A program made the translations under genes and the position numbers. A stretch of DNA of 64,000 bases from Pseudomonas entomophila (GTDB lineage Bacteria; Pseudomonadota; Gammaproteobacteria; Pseudomonadales; Pseudomonadaceae): assembly GCF_018417595.1 (NCBI RefSeq), contig NZ_CP070982.1, forward strand, positions 4,577,001 through 4,641,000. The letters run 5' to 3'. Shown piece after piece: positions 18,466 through 24,079 of the stretch. A model generated the notes under the pieces. That model was not told the origin of the DNA and searched no databases. It saw only the letters and a list, made by a program, of their open reading frames with translations. The stretch's first letter is position 1, and each line of letters starts with the position of its first letter.

Positions 18466-19659
18466 ATGAACCATGCCTTGACCCAGCTTCAGCCCTACCC
18501 GTTCGAGAAACTGCGCGCCCTGCTCGGTAGCGTGAAGCCTGCGGCGGACAAACGCGCCATCGCCCTGTCGATCGGCGAGCCGAAGCACGAATCGCCGGCG
18601 TTCGTCGCCAAGGCCTTGGCCGATAACCTCGACAAGCTGGCGGTCTACCCCAGTACCCTCGGCCTGCCCGCCCTGCGCCAGGCCATCGGCCAGTGGTGCG
18701 AGCGCCGCTTCAAGGTACCGGCTGGCTGGCTGGATGCCGACCGCCACATCCTGCCGGTGAACGGCACCCGCGAGGCCCTGTTCGCCTTCACCCAGGCCGT
18801 GGTCAACCGCGCGGACGATGGCCTGGTGGTCAGCCCCAACCCGTTCTATCAGATCTACGAAGGCGCGGCCCTGCTGGCCGGTGCCACCCCGCACTACCTG
18901 CCATGCCTGGAAAACAACGGCTTCAACCCGGACTTCGATGCCGTGCCGGCCGACGTGTGGAAGCGCTGCCAGATCCTGTTCCTCTGCTCCCCGGGCAATC
19001 CCACCGGTGCGCTGGTACCGATGCAGACGCTGAAAAAACTGATCGCCCTGGCCGACGAGCACGACTTCGTCATCGCCTCCGATGAGTGCTACAGCGAACT
19101 CTACTTCGACGAGGACGCCCCGCCACCGGGCCTGCTCACTGCATGTGCCGAGCTCGGCCGCAGCGACTTCAAGCGCTGCGTGGTGTTCCACAGCCTGTCC
19201 AAGCGCTCCAACCTGCCAGGCCTGCGCTCGGGCTTCGTCGCCGGTGACGCCGAGATCATCAAGCCGTTCCTGCTGTACCGCACCTACCATGGCTGCGCCA
19301 TGCCGGTACAGACTCAGCTGGCCAGCATTGCCGCCTGGCAGGACGAGGCCCATGTGCGCGACAACCGTGACCAGTACCGCGCCAAGTACGATGCGGTACT
19401 CGACATCCTGCAGCCGGTACTGGATGTGCAACGCCCCGATGGCAGCTTCTACCTGTGGGCCAAAGTGCCGGGCAACGATGCCGACTTCACCCGCGACCTG
19501 TTCGAAGCGCAGCACGTGACCGTGGTGCCGGGCTCGTACCTGTCGCGCGAGGTGGACGGGGTCAATCCAGGGGCCGGGCGCGTACGCATGGCGCTGGTCG
19601 CACCGCTGGCCGAATGCATCGAGGCGGCCGAACGAATCCGTGCGTTCCTGAGTCGCTGA
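18466..19659 (+). CDS. dapC: N-succinyl-L,L-diaminopimelate aminotransferase
   Basis: A class I/II PLP aminotransferase of 397 residues assigned to DapC, which forms N-succinyl-LL-DAP in the lysine and peptidoglycan pathway. PLP-binding features are SPGNPTG, Asp206/Tyr209 (ASDECYSE) and the Schiff-base Lys246 in SLSKRSNLPG. The assignment rests on similarity to the DapC family and on the glnD-dapC neighbourhood, with dapD and dapE in the same window. A broader acetylornithine/succinyl-DAP specificity is possible. Confidence 0.9.
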   Translation: MNHALTQLQPYPFEKLRALLGSVKPAADKRAIALSIGEPKHESPAFVAKALADNLDKLAVYPSTLGLPALRQAIGQWCERRFKVPAGWLDADRHILPVNGTREALFAFTQAVVNRADDGLVVSPNPFYQIYEGAALLAGATPHYLPCLENNGFNPDFDAVPADVWKRCQILFLCSPGNPTGALVPMQTLKKLIALADEHDFVIASDECYSELYFDEDAPPPGLLTACAELGRSDFKRCVVFHSLSKRSNLPGLRSGFVAGDAEIIKPFLLYRTYHGCAMPVQTQLASIAAWQDEAHVRDNRDQYRAKYDAVLDILQPVLDVQRPDGSFYLWAKVPGNDADFTRDLFEAQHVTVVPGSYLSREVDGVNPGAGRVRMALVAPLAECIEAAERIRAFLSR

Positions 19660-19734: not shown

Positions 19735-20472
19735 ATGTCTCAACTGATCTTTTCCCACCGCCTGAAGCCTGCCGACCCACAGCTCGCCGAACTGCTGGCA
19801 CGACTGGAGAATCCCGGCAACGCAGCCACGACCGCCGGCGGCCGACAAAAGCGTGCCTTGGCCATCACCCGTAAGCTCTGGCGCCCCGGCCGCTTACTGA
19901 AGGTCTCGTTCCTCGGCAGCCCCGATGACTTCCTGAAGTCGGAAATCTTCAAGACAGCTTCACAATGGCTGCTACGCTCGGGGGCCAACCTGGCAATGGC
20001 GCTGACGCGGGATAACGACCCACAGGCACAAATCAGGGTACGCACCGGCAGGTCGCTGCCACGCAATGAGTCCTGCGCCGGAACCGACGCACTGGCCATG
20101 CCCGCCGAGACCATGAACCTCAACGTCGAGCCCGGCGATACCGCCTTCGAGCACGTCGTCTTGCACGAGTTCGGCCACGCCCTGGGAGCGGAACACGAAC
20201 ACCAGCACCCCGATGCCAGCATTCCGTGGAATGTCGAGGAGGTTGTGCGCGCGGCCAATGCGGAACAGGGCTGGACGCGCCAGCAGGTGATGGACGAGAT
20301 GATCGCCAGGCGTGCCGACGTCGGTATCGTGAAGAGCAACTACGATCCAGGCTCGGTCATGCATTATCCGATTCCCCAGGCATTCACCCTCGGGGACTGG
20401 GAGGTCGGCCTGAACAGCCGCCTCAGTGACAAGGACCTGGCGTTCATGCGTATCGCCTACCCACATGACTGA
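19735..20472 (+). CDS. Astacin-like (M12A) zinc metallopeptidase, paralogue 1
   Basis: A 245-residue protein with the metzincin zinc site HEFGHALGAEHEHQHP (His144, Glu145, His148, His154, with Glu155 after the third His as in astacins). A Met-turn SVMHY follows (Met209-Tyr211, 55 residues later). The C-terminal block LGDWEVGLNSRLSDKD is shared with the next two genes. The N-terminus (MSQLIFSHRLKPADPQ) has no signal peptide or propeptide-like export signal, and there is a single Cys. Target and location are unknown. It is the first of three tandem paralogues downstream of dapC, and its SD lies in a hairpin. Family is secure from the motifs; the biological role is not. Confidence 0.85.
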   Translation: MSQLIFSHRLKPADPQLAELLARLENPGNAATTAGGRQKRALAITRKLWRPGRLLKVSFLGSPDDFLKSEIFKTASQWLLRSGANLAMALTRDNDPQAQIRVRTGRSLPRNESCAGTDALAMPAETMNLNVEPGDTAFEHVVLHEFGHALGAEHEHQHPDASIPWNVEEVVRAANAEQGWTRQQVMDEMIARRADVGIVKSNYDPGSVMHYPIPQAFTLGDWEVGLNSRLSDKDLAFMRIAYPHD

Positions 20473-20487
20473 CGGGGCGTCCCATAT

Positions 20488-20497
20488 CCATATATGG
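20488..20497 (+). promoter_or_regulatory. AT-rich palindrome upstream of metallopeptidase 2
   Basis: A perfect 10-bp palindrome CCATATATGG lies 59 nt before the second metallopeptidase start, in the 83-nt gap. It could be a regulator half-site pair or part of a -10 region; nothing further supports either. Confidence 0.3.
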
Positions 20498-20520
20498 CAC
20501 GGAGCTCCCGTACCCTTGCA

Positions 20521-20557
20521 ATGCTCTGGTTTCCACATCAACAGGAATCCAGAGCAT
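20521..20557 (+). promoter_or_regulatory. Hairpin enclosing RBS and start of metallopeptidase 2
   Basis: A perfect 9-bp inverted repeat (ATGCTCTGG / CCAGAGCAT) with a 19-nt loop. The loop carries the SD-like AGGA (20543-20546), and the 3' arm includes the first two bases of the ATG at 20556. Opening of this stem would be needed for initiation. It parallels the hairpins of the neighbouring paralogues. Confidence 0.6.
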
Positions 20558-21290
20558 GACCAACCTGACCAATCACAGCTGCCAGCCTCATTCGGCCCCG
20601 TATGAATCGCGCATGGTCGCCCTTGCGCAACACCCGCGTGATCTCACCTCCCCTCAAGGCAACCGGAGAAAGCGTTCCGTGGGCTACTCCGACAAACTCT
20701 GGGCGCCAGGCCAAACGCTGCGTATTTCGTTCGTCAATGAACCTGCTGAAACACTGAAGTCAGCCATCATGGCAGCAGCCAACAAGTGGTTGCCGTTCAT
20801 CAATCTCAAGTTCCAGCTGGTCGAAGACGATCTCTTTGCGGCGGAAATCAAGATCCATACCGGCGGTGATCCCAAGCAGAACTACGCTATGTTCGGCACG
20901 GATGCCCTGCGCGCCGCCGATGCCTCGATGGTGCTGGGGATAACCCCCGACATGGACAATTTCGAGTACACGGTCATTCACGAATTTGGCCATGCACTGG
21001 GCATGGAGCACGAACACCAGCATCCGGACGCCGATATCCCCTGGGATGTTCCCAAGGTCTACGCGCACTACGCCGCCAAGGGTTACGACCAAGAGACCGT
21101 CGATGAGGCGGTGCTGAGCAAGATCACCGTTGGCAACCTCACGAAACAACCGTATGACCGCCATTCGATCATGCATTATCCGGTGGATCAGGCGCTCACC
21201 GTGGGTGACTGGGAGGTAGGTATCAATTCTCAGATCAGCGAAAAGGACAAAGCCTTCATGCGCGCGGCTTATCCATACCCTAGCGAGTGA
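20556..21290 (+). CDS. Astacin-like (M12A) zinc metallopeptidase, paralogue 2
   Basis: A 244-residue paralogue of the preceding gene. The zinc site HEFGHALGMEHEHQHP places ligands at His142, His146 and His152 with catalytic Glu143, and the Met-turn SIMHY is at 204-208. Also shared are the N-terminal LW-PG-TLRISF block near residue 48 and the C-terminal VGDWEVGINSQISEKDK. No signal peptide or membrane segment is seen, and there is one Cys. The 83-nt gap from paralogue 1 and its own hairpin leader suggest separate translational control. Substrate unknown; cytoplasmic action or a non-Sec export route are both possible. Confidence 0.85.
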   Translation: MTNLTNHSCQPHSAPYESRMVALAQHPRDLTSPQGNRRKRSVGYSDKLWAPGQTLRISFVNEPAETLKSAIMAAANKWLPFINLKFQLVEDDLFAAEIKIHTGGDPKQNYAMFGTDALRAADASMVLGITPDMDNFEYTVIHEFGHALGMEHEHQHPDADIPWDVPKVYAHYAAKGYDQETVDEAVLSKITVGNLTKQPYDRHSIMHYPVDQALTVGDWEVGINSQISEKDKAFMRAAYPYPSE

Positions 21291-21392
21291 TCCTTTCTCA
21301 CTGCGCCTAACCTGAACAAACACAGGTCTGACTGCCTTTTCCTACGGTCAAGCAATATATACCGCAGGAGCAAAGGGCATTTCCCACATCGT

Positions 21393-21417
21393 GGAGCCTC
21401 CTAAACAATGAGGCTTC
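21393..21417 (+). promoter_or_regulatory. Hairpin containing the RBS of metallopeptidase 3
   Basis: An 8-bp stem (GGAGCCTC / GAGGCTTC, one G-U pair) with a 9-nt loop. The 3' arm holds GAGG (21410-21413), the SD for the ATG at 21422 with 8-nt spacing. It is the third hairpin of this type in the cluster. Confidence 0.55.
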
Positions 21418-21421
21418 TATT

Positions 21422-22171
21422 ATGACCCGTACCCTGATCGCGAACACCCTCCACGAACTTCGCACCACCCTGAAACAAGGCCCGAAAAACCGCGGGGCGA
21501 TAGGCACCCGCTCGATCGGCCAACAGTCAGCATTCTGGCTGCCCGCCCAAACCCTGCGCATTTCGTTCTGGGGCAACCCGGAAGAAGCCCTCAAGCAAGC
21601 GATCCTCGATACGGCAAGTCAATGGTTGGAATACGCCAACCTTGAATTCGAACGGGTGGGGAATAACGACCAGTCAGCTCATATCCGCATCGACTGCAAC
21701 GTGCCCGAGAATGTGAATCGAAGCTACCTCGGCAGGGAAGCGATGAACATCGAAGGCCCCACGCTGTACTTGGGCGTCAAACCTTCGAACGAAACATTCG
21801 AAATGACGGTCCTGCACGAGTTCGGCCATGTACTGGGGTTGAAGCACGAACATCAGCACCCGCAAGCCCATATACCCTGGGACTGGGAAGCCCTGCGCGA
21901 GGTCGTCATCGACGGGCTCTCGGAGGAAGAACTTAATCACAGTGATATCGAGGCCATTATTGATAAGGCACTTGACGTCAACTTCCGCCCACTTACCCCT
22001 GACGGCCTGATCCTGCTGCACTATGACAAGCTGTCGATCATGCACTACAGCGTCGAACAGGAACTCACCCTTGGTGACTGGGAACTGGACTACAACTGGC
22101 ACCTCAGTGAAAAGGACAAGCAGTTGGTCGGCATGATCTACCCGGGCCGCTTCGAACACTCGGCTATCTGA
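21422..22171 (+). CDS. Astacin-like (M12A) zinc metallopeptidase, paralogue 3
   Basis: A 249-residue paralogue, more divergent than the first two. The zinc site HEFGHVLGLKHEHQHP has His132, Glu133, His136, His142 and Glu143, and the Met-turn SIMHY is at 205-209. The segment between zinc site and Met-turn is about 10 residues longer than in the other two (contains LSEEELNHSDIEAIIDKAL). The shared LPAQTLRISF and LTLGDWELDYNWHLSEKDK blocks confirm common descent. No signal peptide. By eye its base composition looks slightly less GC-rich than flanking housekeeping genes. It is convergent with the antiporter gene, and the two 3' ends overlap by 8 nt. Confidence 0.85.
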   Translation: MTRTLIANTLHELRTTLKQGPKNRGAIGTRSIGQQSAFWLPAQTLRISFWGNPEEALKQAILDTASQWLEYANLEFERVGNNDQSAHIRIDCNVPENVNRSYLGREAMNIEGPTLYLGVKPSNETFEMTVLHEFGHVLGLKHEHQHPQAHIPWDWEALREVVIDGLSEEELNHSDIEAIIDKALDVNFRPLTPDGLILLHYDKLSIMHYSVEQELTLGDWELDYNWHLSEKDKQLVGMIYPGRFEHSAI

Positions 22172-23810
22172 CCTGCCCCAGGTTCGCCTCACTGAGGTCC
22201 AGCTCCCCTAGCACCTGGCGCACCACTTCATCGCCCACCTGATGCTGGCGATGCAGGTTGTACAGTTCCAGGCGCTGGGCCCGCAGCGCACGCAGGCGCA
22301 AGCGGCGCTCCAGCAGGTCCATCTGCTCGGCCAGGGCACGGGCCTCGGCGGTATCGTTATAGCTGTCCAGCTCATCCCGATACTCGGCCATCAACCGGGC
22401 CTTGAGCTCGATGGCCAAGGTGGCCTGCGCCGCGTCCTGTGGTGCACCGGCATCACTCACCTCCTCCGCCTCGAGGGCATGGATGGCTGCCTCGGCCGTG
22501 CGCCGCCAGGCCTCCTGAACCTCCTGGCGCAGGCGTTCGTCCGGGCTCTTGGTTACGCCGCGCAACAAGATCGGCAGGGCGATGACGGCACTGATCAGCG
22601 ACAGCAGAATCACCCCGGCGGCGATGAAAATCAGCAGGTCACGCTCGGGAAATGCCTTGCCCGCGCCCATCAGCAAGGGCACCGACATCACGCCCGCCAG
22701 GGTTACCGCACCGCGCACGCCGCCCAGGGTCAACAACCAGCAGGACCGGGCGGTCGGCATCAGCACCAGCTCGGGCTTGCCGCGCCAGCGCCGCACCACG
22801 CCGATCGCCCGCCAGATGCTCTGCACCCAGATGAACCGCAGCAGTACCAGCGCGGCGAAGATCGCCACAACGTCCAGGCAGCGCCAGGCCAGAGTCGGCC
22901 AGACCGTCGCCTCGTCACTGACCACCGCCTTGACGATGTCCGGCAGTTGCAGACCAAGCAGCAGGAAGATCAAACCATTGAAGGCAAACTCCAGCAGCGA
23001 CCAGACGCTGCGGTTGAGCAGCCGGGTGCTGGTCTGGCGTGGCAGCAGGTCAAGCCAGCTCTGCATCATCCCGGCAGCCACCGCCGAGAGAATGCCCGAC
23101 ACACCCAGCCGTTCGGCCAGCACATAGGCGGCGAACGGCAACAACAGCATGAACACCACATGGGTCGCCGGGTCGTCCCAGCCACGGGTGATCATCCACA
23201 TCCGCAGACGGCCGACCAACCAACTGAGCGCAACCCCCACCGCCAGCCCGCCAAGGGCGACGAGCACGAAGGTGAGGCTGGCTTCGGTCAACGAGAACAC
23301 GCCGGTGATGGCCGCCACCAAGGCGAACTTGAACGTCACCAGGCCCGAGGCATCATTCATCAATGCCTCTCCCTGCAGCATGTGCATCAACGGCGTGGGC
23401 AGACGGTCCTGGGTAATGGCCGACACGGCCACGGCATCGGTGGGCGAGAGCACCGCGGCCAATGCGAAAGCCACGGGCAAAGGAATAGCCGGCAACAGCC
23501 AGTGGATGAAGTAACCGGCCCCGACCACGGTGAACAGCACCAACCCCACCGCCAAGGCCACCACCGGTCCGCGGATACGCCACAGTTCACGCTTGGGCAT
23601 GCGCCAGCCATCGGCAAACAGCAGCGGCGGCAGAAACAGGAACAGGAACAACTCCGGGTCCAGCGCCACATGCAGCCCCAGGGTCGGCCAGGCCAGCAAG
23701 GCGCCAGCACCGATCTGCACCAGTGGCAGCGGCAGCGGCACCACCCGGCCCACCAGTTTCGACAGACTCACCAGCATCAGCAGGATAAGGACGGTATAGG
23801 CTGACTGCAT
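22164..23810 (-). CDS. CPA1-family Na+/H+ antiporter
   Basis: A 548-residue membrane protein with about 12 hydrophobic segments in the first 420 residues. It has the cation/proton antiporter motif SPTDAVAVSA (ion-binding Asp) and a hydrophilic, Glu/Arg-rich C-terminal tail of about 130 residues. Start MQSAYTVLILLMLVSLSKLVG at 23810 is chosen because it begins directly with the first membrane helix; the open frame extends to 24011 but that part is not conserved-looking. It probably exports Na+ or K+ in exchange for protons across the inner membrane. Its 3' end overlaps metallopeptidase 3 by 8 nt. Confidence 0.88.
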   Translation of the reverse strand: MQSAYTVLILLMLVSLSKLVGRVVPLPLPLVQIGAGALLAWPTLGLHVALDPELFLFLFLPPLLFADGWRMPKRELWRIRGPVVALAVGLVLFTVVGAGYFIHWLLPAIPLPVAFALAAVLSPTDAVAVSAITQDRLPTPLMHMLQGEALMNDASGLVTFKFALVAAITGVFSLTEASLTFVLVALGGLAVGVALSWLVGRLRMWMITRGWDDPATHVVFMLLLPFAAYVLAERLGVSGILSAVAAGMMQSWLDLLPRQTSTRLLNRSVWSLLEFAFNGLIFLLLGLQLPDIVKAVVSDEATVWPTLAWRCLDVVAIFAALVLLRFIWVQSIWRAIGVVRRWRGKPELVLMPTARSCWLLTLGGVRGAVTLAGVMSVPLLMGAGKAFPERDLLIFIAAGVILLSLISAVIALPILLRGVTKSPDERLRQEVQEAWRRTAEAAIHALEAEEVSDAGAPQDAAQATLAIELKARLMAEYRDELDSYNDTAEARALAEQMDLLERRLRLRALRAQRLELYNLHRQHQVGDEVVRQVLGELDLSEANLGQVR

Positions 23811-23889
23811 CGGTGAGCTTCCTGTTTGAACGGAGAATCGACAGCGGGGCACAACAACGCCATTGAAACGATATGTTAGCGGGGAGCGT

Positions 23890-23913
23890 CTATCGTGGGC
23901 CGCTACACGATAG
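23890..23913. promoter_or_regulatory. Inverted repeat CTATCGTG-N8-CACGATAG
   Basis: A perfect 8-bp inverted repeat with an 8-bp spacer in the 269-nt divergent region between the antiporter and the ArsC-like gene. The size and spacing fit a dimeric regulator's operator or a small RNA hairpin. No regulator gene is adjacent. Confidence 0.4.
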
Positions 23914-24079
23914 TCGCAGCTCGCCCCTGAATATGTAACACAATGATTCGCGATAAGCTGTGATACACATCGCCCCTGCCTTCGAGCCCGTGGCCGTGGC
24001 GCCAACCCCATCGATACCGCATAATCGGCCCCACCCTATCTTCACGGAGTATCGGGCTGCCCGGCGGCCCTGGCATTCA

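Follow-up and report, generated by a model that had tools for sequence, protein, structure and literature searches.

Astacins are zinc metallopeptidases of family M12A whose minimal architecture is a signal peptide, a propeptide and a catalytic domain (PMC9848320). The propeptide blocks the zinc through an Asp or, in myroilysin, through a Cys; the N-terminus that is freed on maturation folds in and binds the Glu past the third zinc-binding His (PMC9848320). The same review, of 2023, puts the astacin sequences outside the Holozoa at fewer than 400, in scattered taxa, and suggests gene transfer from holozoan donors. Astacin-type genes without a signal peptide were matched in 141 of 398 Pseudomonas genomes (about a third, with up to four matches per genome), mostly at one locus and most of them with a convertase-type site. 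Three such genes stand in tandem in a stretch of 64,000 nucleotides of Pseudomonas entomophila DNA (contig NZ_CP070982.1, positions 4,577,001 to 4,641,000; referred to below, at its full length, as the window), and are the subject of this analysis (genes 1-3, Table 1). The best solved relative of each is myroilysin of Myroides, an M12A enzyme of the same fold, available as the zymogen (PDB 5gwd and 5czw) and in the mature form (5zjk). Myroilysin is secreted (PMC6331793), unlike the Pseudomonas proteins, which show no signal peptide; it also differs from them in having DPR at the maturation bond, where most Pseudomonas proteins have R-x-K-R, and they, unlike it, come in tandem copies at a conserved locus. 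A literature search covering titles and the beginnings of abstracts returned no publication on this Pseudomonas family.

Our reading, to which we give a probability of about 0.7, is that genes 1-3 encode latent myroilysin-type zinc endopeptidases that lack a signal peptide and are switched on when a propeptide is cut off after an Arg. Propeptides of 40, 40 and 30 residues would hold the three proteins inactive; a cut directly past a conserved Arg, which in genes 1 and 2 closes the sequence Arg-x-Lys-Arg, would free a new N-terminus, and its folding in to bind the Glu past the third zinc His would turn the enzyme on. Release would be by lysis or some other non-Sec route, and activation would follow outside the cell, through a protease with a preference for basic residues. 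That the enzymes would then serve in digesting or attacking the proteins of neighbours is our guess.

Each of the three genes starts with ATG in the list of open reading frames (ORFs), and each encodes the entire HExxHxxGxxH zinc site, the Glu that follows it and an SxMHY Met-turn (SVMHY in gene 1, SIMHY in genes 2 and 3). All three exceed the gathering score of 22.5 bits of the Pfam Astacin profile (PF01400). Genes 2 and 3 are 44% and 38% identical to gene 1, and genes 1-3 are the sole matches when the 5.96-Mb genome is searched with gene 2. Mature myroilysin ranks first in Foldseek and VIA-align comparisons of the AlphaFold model of gene 2. Profile and structure comparison thus support tandem paralogues with an astacin-type metzincin fold, myroilysin being nearest, and bear out what an earlier note on this DNA had proposed: three tandem paralogues of 244-249 residues with the astacin signature (zinc site, family Glu and Met-turn all intact) and a single Cys each. 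In gene 2 this Cys is Cys9, within the propeptide; that of genes 1 and 3 belongs to the catalytic part.

The same note had the three proteins start directly with soluble sequence. That description does not hold, since a propeptide is present and ends where mature myroilysin starts. The 5zjk chain begins with GAVV, just past the DPR of the longer 5gwd and 5czw chains, and comparison of the chain pair suggests that this start is the natural mature end. Residue 1 of 5zjk aligns without a gap to Ala41 of gene 1, Ser41 of gene 2 and Ser31 of gene 3, from which the propeptide lengths given above follow. In the VIA alignments, residue 42 of the gene 2 model is the first to be paired with residue 1 of mature crayfish astacin, BMP1 and TLL-1. 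Residues 37-40 are the sole stretch of at least three residues in that model with a predicted local distance difference test score (pLDDT) below 50, which fits a flexible loop. Of 148 Pseudomonas genes whose propeptide is at least 22 residues long, 99 have a Cys among their first 16 residues, where a switch of the myroilysin type would require it; gene 2 is among them, and its Cys9 is a candidate cysteine switch. The loosely defined propeptide motif E-[NRHS]-[PSEA]-x-N is present in 101 of the 148 and is also visible in the distant relatives P0097, P0115 and P0117.

How general the basic site is was followed in 125 Pseudomonas loci, of which 15 are named loci and the other 110 are stretches taken from 108 carrier genomes (of 141). 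These yielded 167 distinct genes in 118 loci (what is counted below is genes rather than independent events), which were aligned on a conserved Trp nine residues into the mature enzyme; the first copy of locus L189, which has no such anchor, is counted among the 167 and left out of the 166 anchored genes, and a member at L186 with RSKR before Gly, missed by the motif filter, is in no count. At the four residues preceding the bond (P4-P1), 119 genes have R-x-K-R and six R-x-R-R, for a total of 125/167; the remainder comprises 12 with another R-x-x-R, 13 with Arg at P1 only, one xKR, nine with Met-Trp at P2-P1, six with something else and the one without the anchor. Position by position, Arg is at P1 in 151/166, at P4 in 140/166, and Lys is at P2 in 120/166, while P3 varies widely (R, K, Q, S, T, H, N, G and others); the residue after the bond (P1') is most often Ser (68 genes), followed by Ala (45) and Gly (23). 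Among representatives below 85% identity, 89 of 115 have R-x-[KR]-R at the bond; the catalytic parts of the same proteins contain it six times in 32,813 windows. Departures include REPR or RQPR in P. viridiflava and P. avellanae (L081, L083 and L098) and HQAR in some other genomes. The propeptide is 40 or 41 residues long in 69 of 152 genes, with starts chosen by rule. Outside the genus, 56 proteins from 56 named loci served as the control, 55 of them anchored (L079 is not). Neither R-x-[KR]-R nor R-x-x-R stands at P4-P1 in any of the 55; 17 have a lone Arg at P1, five have Lys and 33 have neither, and the nearest approach to the basic site is GKR before Ala in Maribacter (L068). A further alignment, in which 97 of 120 proteins could be placed, includes members of metagenomic or otherwise unassigned origin, and these enter no count. 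To judge from these alignments, R-x-K-R looks like a genus-specific activation site of the furin/kexin type in most Pseudomonas members, and the proteins look like myroilysin-type zymogens that dispense with a signal peptide.

The basic motif could also be something other than a processing site: a nuclear-localisation-like, nucleic-acid-binding or folding element of proteins that stay in the cytoplasm. RKKR and RRKR do resemble short nuclear-localisation motifs, and the family has no signal peptide. A cytoplasmic role might also be seen in the finding that plasmid-borne SCO6992, a Streptomyces relative, raised antibiotic production in Streptomyces (PMC9705864). This alternative leaves unexplained the fixed distance of the motif from the Trp and its match to the mature end of myroilysin, and we consider it improbable.

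A protease of the bacterium itself might make the activating cut. Inside the cell this could be, for example, oligopeptidase B, which favours dibasic sites; once the cell has lysed, it could be a subtilisin that is exported, or another protease directed at Arg. The P. entomophila genome offers candidates: four S8 matches, three trypsin-family matches, and, as one of its proteins, a 2388-residue RTX-like protein in which S8 and P_proprotein domains form a kexin-like pair (L207:3659-10825; C1 at about 54.2-61.3 kb, minus strand). Moreover, the lone Arg or Lys at P1 in 22 of the 55 outside relatives makes an older, bacterial mode of activation possible. As a general activator of the family a convertase of this kexin-like kind, made by the bacterium itself, was rejected, since the P-domain was found in just 17 of the 141 carriers (and in 17 non-carriers, 34/398 genomes in all; the overlap was counted by hand from two lists and includes the weak carrier G308); for the P. 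entomophila genome, which encodes one, it was not rejected. Against activation by the maker's own enzymes stand the 124/141 carriers in which this kexin-like domain was not found and the frequency of Arg at P4, which is more than trypsin-like enzymes require: they need no Arg there. On balance we rate some other protease of the bacterium's own as quite possible, at somewhat less than even odds, and a eukaryotic convertase as rather unlikely.

In the latter case the cut would be made by a furin- or kexin-type proprotein convertase of a fungus, amoeba, insect or other neighbour, and the enzyme would be harmless in its maker and turned on at its target. Arg at P4, a free P3, Lys at P2, Arg at P1 and mostly Ser, Ala or Gly at P1' match the furin motif, R-X-R/K/X-R (PMC3545927); the basic site is confined to the genus in the comparison above; carriers mostly have no recognised P-domain; the P. 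entomophila genome has no omptin match; and the gaps in the window, of 75, 83 and 131 bases, leave no room for an immunity gene there. On the other side, the motif by itself does not predict furin cleavage, according to the same source (PMC3545927), and the genus-wide survey of proteases covered the P-domain alone among bacterial basic-residue cutters. A delivery route would also be needed, and none is known. Furin acts within the secretory and endocytic compartments, and a protein released by the bacterium would have to get there. The full form of this proposal is that the genus keeps an evolving set of signal-less zymogens at one conserved site, with the convertase of eukaryotic neighbours as their safety catch: the bacterium could not activate them, and cleavage of the furin/kexin type at the target would do so. 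R-x-K-R would then be a gain of the genus where some relatives have a lone Arg. This appears unlikely to us. The identity of the R-x-K-R cutter would tell self-activation from a eukaryotic trigger.

Several observations weigh against reading the family as latent zymogens. Gene 3 is without R-x-K-R. Genes 1 and 3 are without a propeptide Cys, and some other residue would have to keep these two latent. Known astacin zymogens have an occluded maturation bond (PMC9848320). The gene 2 model is weak over residues 1-40 (pLDDT block means 54, 73, 75 and 49), which makes the dip at residues 37-40 soft evidence. In seven of the nine genes with Met-Trp at P2-P1 (L124, L127, L129, L132, L145, L166 and L172) the Met is the rule-chosen start; a propeptide is therefore not common to all paralogues, and these, several of which lie beside a propeptide-bearing copy, may be mature from the start or may not be proteases. 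The sample is biased as well: the 108 genomes fetched are the higher-scoring carriers, so that R-x-K-R may be rarer in the rest; seven of the 125 loci gave no gene, being duplicates or missed by the motif filter; and at least one of the 15 named loci duplicates another sampled genome (L091 and L032). Finally, SCO6992, made as a fusion with maltose-binding protein (MBP), is reported to have no protease activity and was called a beta-glucuronidase (PMC9705864). The fusion would block the mature N-terminus, and the propeptide reading offers a reason for the inactivity of SCO6992 as an N-terminal fusion.

The lack of an export signal of the Sec type, asserted in the earlier note, stands up to a test of hydropathy (rather than SignalP). 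The best 13-residue Kyte-Doolittle means are 0.23, -0.03 and 0.72 for genes 1, 2 and 3, with no hydrophobic N-terminus in any of them, and among the family proteins of Pseudomonas, 160 of which have a usable ATG, no value near the N-terminus is as high as 1.6 (the highest is 1.58). Relatives in Niabella, Flavobacterium and some Pedobacter score about 1.9-3.0; many Bacteroidetes relatives have a hydrophobic stretch of signal strength and others (L062, L068 and L094) have none. The same catalytic domain, without a signal-like stretch, is found in M12 proteins of a cyanobacterium, Chloroflexi and others that carry C-terminal LysM, B-lectin, PPC or hemopexin domains, so the signal-less state is common to a wider group. 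These proteins differ from the Pseudomonas family in their extra domains and in having R-x-K-R at the bond in none of those placed; their N-terminal Cys is invariant in 14 of 14 aligned.

A small soluble enzyme without a signal peptide might also be an effector injected by a type VI or other secretion system, and genes 1-3 have a weak profile likeness to LegP (NCBIfam NF045530), an effector metalloprotease of the Dot/Icm system, at 20.7, 20.0 and 35.9 bits where the cut-off is 300. Inspection by eye of the window between 15 and 28 kb and of loci L186 and L189, whole genomes lying outside it, revealed no gene for a secretion system, PAAR or Hcp; the flanks of the other loci were mostly about 1.5 kb. 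We think injection very improbable.

The genomic setting is conserved. Upstream is a gene that, with the earlier note, we take to encode a dapC-type aminotransferase; downstream and convergent is what is presumably, on the same grounds, an antiporter gene. Homologues of dapC, of the antiporter or of arsC adjoin the family in 120 of the 125 fetched loci. The 114 loci with ATG-start genes have one copy in 73 cases, two in 36 and three in five. Among 20 sampled genomes that are free of the family, dapC is present in all 20; the antiporter or arsC is no farther from it than about 350 bases in 15, lies at about 1 kb in two (L212 and L217) and was not seen in the 1.5 kb fetched from three (L218, L221 and L223). 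By tblastn, no remnant of the family was found in any of the 20. The occurrence of the family at this site across the genus disposes of the earlier suggestion of a lineage-specific island. Phage cargo was also rejected (no match in 50,697 phage records), as was plasmid cargo: 14 of 72,556 plasmid records match, all below 60% identity and with no Pseudomonas among the ten matches listed. In the other five loci (L186, L189, L136, L182 and L184) none of these homologues was seen beside the family. Two of them, L186 (genome G017; L186:4894-5667) and L189 (G119; L189:3945-5680), share a second site that, on a reading of the ORFs, adjoins GGDEF, MFS and AraC-type genes; one L189 copy appears to be without its N-terminal part.

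Table 1. Features of the three-gene locus and its flanks (window coordinates)
Feature	Position	Strand	Evidence or remark
Gene 1: myroilysin-type astacin, putative zymogen, 245 residues	19735..20472	+	Pfam Astacin 26.4 bits; myroilysin 100 bits
Gene 2: myroilysin-type astacin, putative zymogen, 244 residues	20556..21290	+	Pfam Astacin 32.0 bits; myroilysin 111 bits
Gene 3: myroilysin-type astacin, 249 residues	21422..22171	+	Pfam Astacin 27.6 bits; myroilysin 84 bits
Gene 1 putative propeptide, residues 1-40, no Cys; RQKR end at 19843-19854	19735..19854	+	Residue 41 opposite 5zjk residue 1
Gene 2 putative propeptide, residues 1-40, Cys9; RRKR end at 20664-20675	20556..20675	+	Residue 41 opposite 5zjk residue 1
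Gene 3 putative propeptide, residues 1-30; GTR end (Arg at P1, not R-x-K-R)	21422..21511	+	Residue 31 opposite 5zjk residue 1
Gene 1 zinc site HEFGHALGAEHEHQHP	20164..20211	+	Sequence
Gene 2 zinc site HEFGHALGMEHEHQHP	20979..21026	+	Sequence
Gene 3 zinc site HEFGHVLGLKHEHQHP	21815..21862	+	Sequence
Presumed dapC-type aminotransferase gene, conserved upstream neighbour	18466..19659	+	Homologue adjoins family in most fetched loci
Presumed antiporter gene, conserved downstream neighbour, convergent	22164..24011	-	ORF list and fetched loci
Inverted repeat, 16-nt arms 88% complementary, ends one base before gene 1 start codon	19700..19733	+	Lead only
Inverted repeat, 14-nt arms 93% complementary, covers first two bases of gene 2 start codon	20521..20557	+	Lead only
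Inverted repeat directly before gene 3 start codon	21395-21415		

Other described relatives are more distant. The EXXRXDRD that follows the third zinc His is a feature of animal-type astacins (PMC9848320), such as crayfish astacin, BMP1/tolloid and the meprins; genes 1-3 have EHQHPxAxIPW in its place and further differ from the animal enzymes in lacking FXGDI in the propeptide, in having one Cys and in having, by hydropathy, no signal peptide. AbsR1/SCO6992 (NCBIfam NF050131) belongs to the same wider metzincin group; genes 1-3 score 59.4, 69.4 and 47.9 bits with its profile, far below the cut-off of 650, and a beta-glucuronidase identity was rejected for them. The name of that metzincin family, beta-glucuronidase AbsR1, goes back to activity reported for the MBP fusion in one paper (PMC9705864) and may spread to relatives. 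Two further proteins are comparable by description only: HypZn of Aspergillus niger, reported to lack a signal peptide and to be active when made in Pichia (PMC8584677), and a Lysobacter soli peptidase of family M12 that is specific for Asp and is a relative of the Asp-N enzyme of P. fragi (PMC12285256).

The start codons of genes 1-3 are accompanied by inverted repeats (Table 1), whose hairpins have z-scores of -5.9, -5.5 and -2.4, respectively, against plain shuffles. When 50 ORFs of the window, some of them spurious, are ranked by start-region energy, gene 1 is second lowest, gene 2 is sixth lowest and gene 3 is outside the ten lowest, so these hairpins are a lead only. CANGGA, a form of the CsrA-type motif, was not seen by eye near the starts of genes 1-3 in the window; it lies no more than 25 nt from the start in 55 of 152 Pseudomonas genes and 29 of 103 representatives, versus one of 35 window ORFs and eight of 760 shuffles (starts were chosen by rule, and the relatives are not independent). 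Proteins of the CsrA family bind hairpins whose loop contains GGA (PMC7366521). In other Pseudomonas members (L013, L019, L026, L114, L119, L122 and others) a short hairpin, acttcANGGAagaagt, lies at the ribosome-binding site with GGA in its loop, and may, as a lead only, be a motif of the RsmA/CsrA kind.

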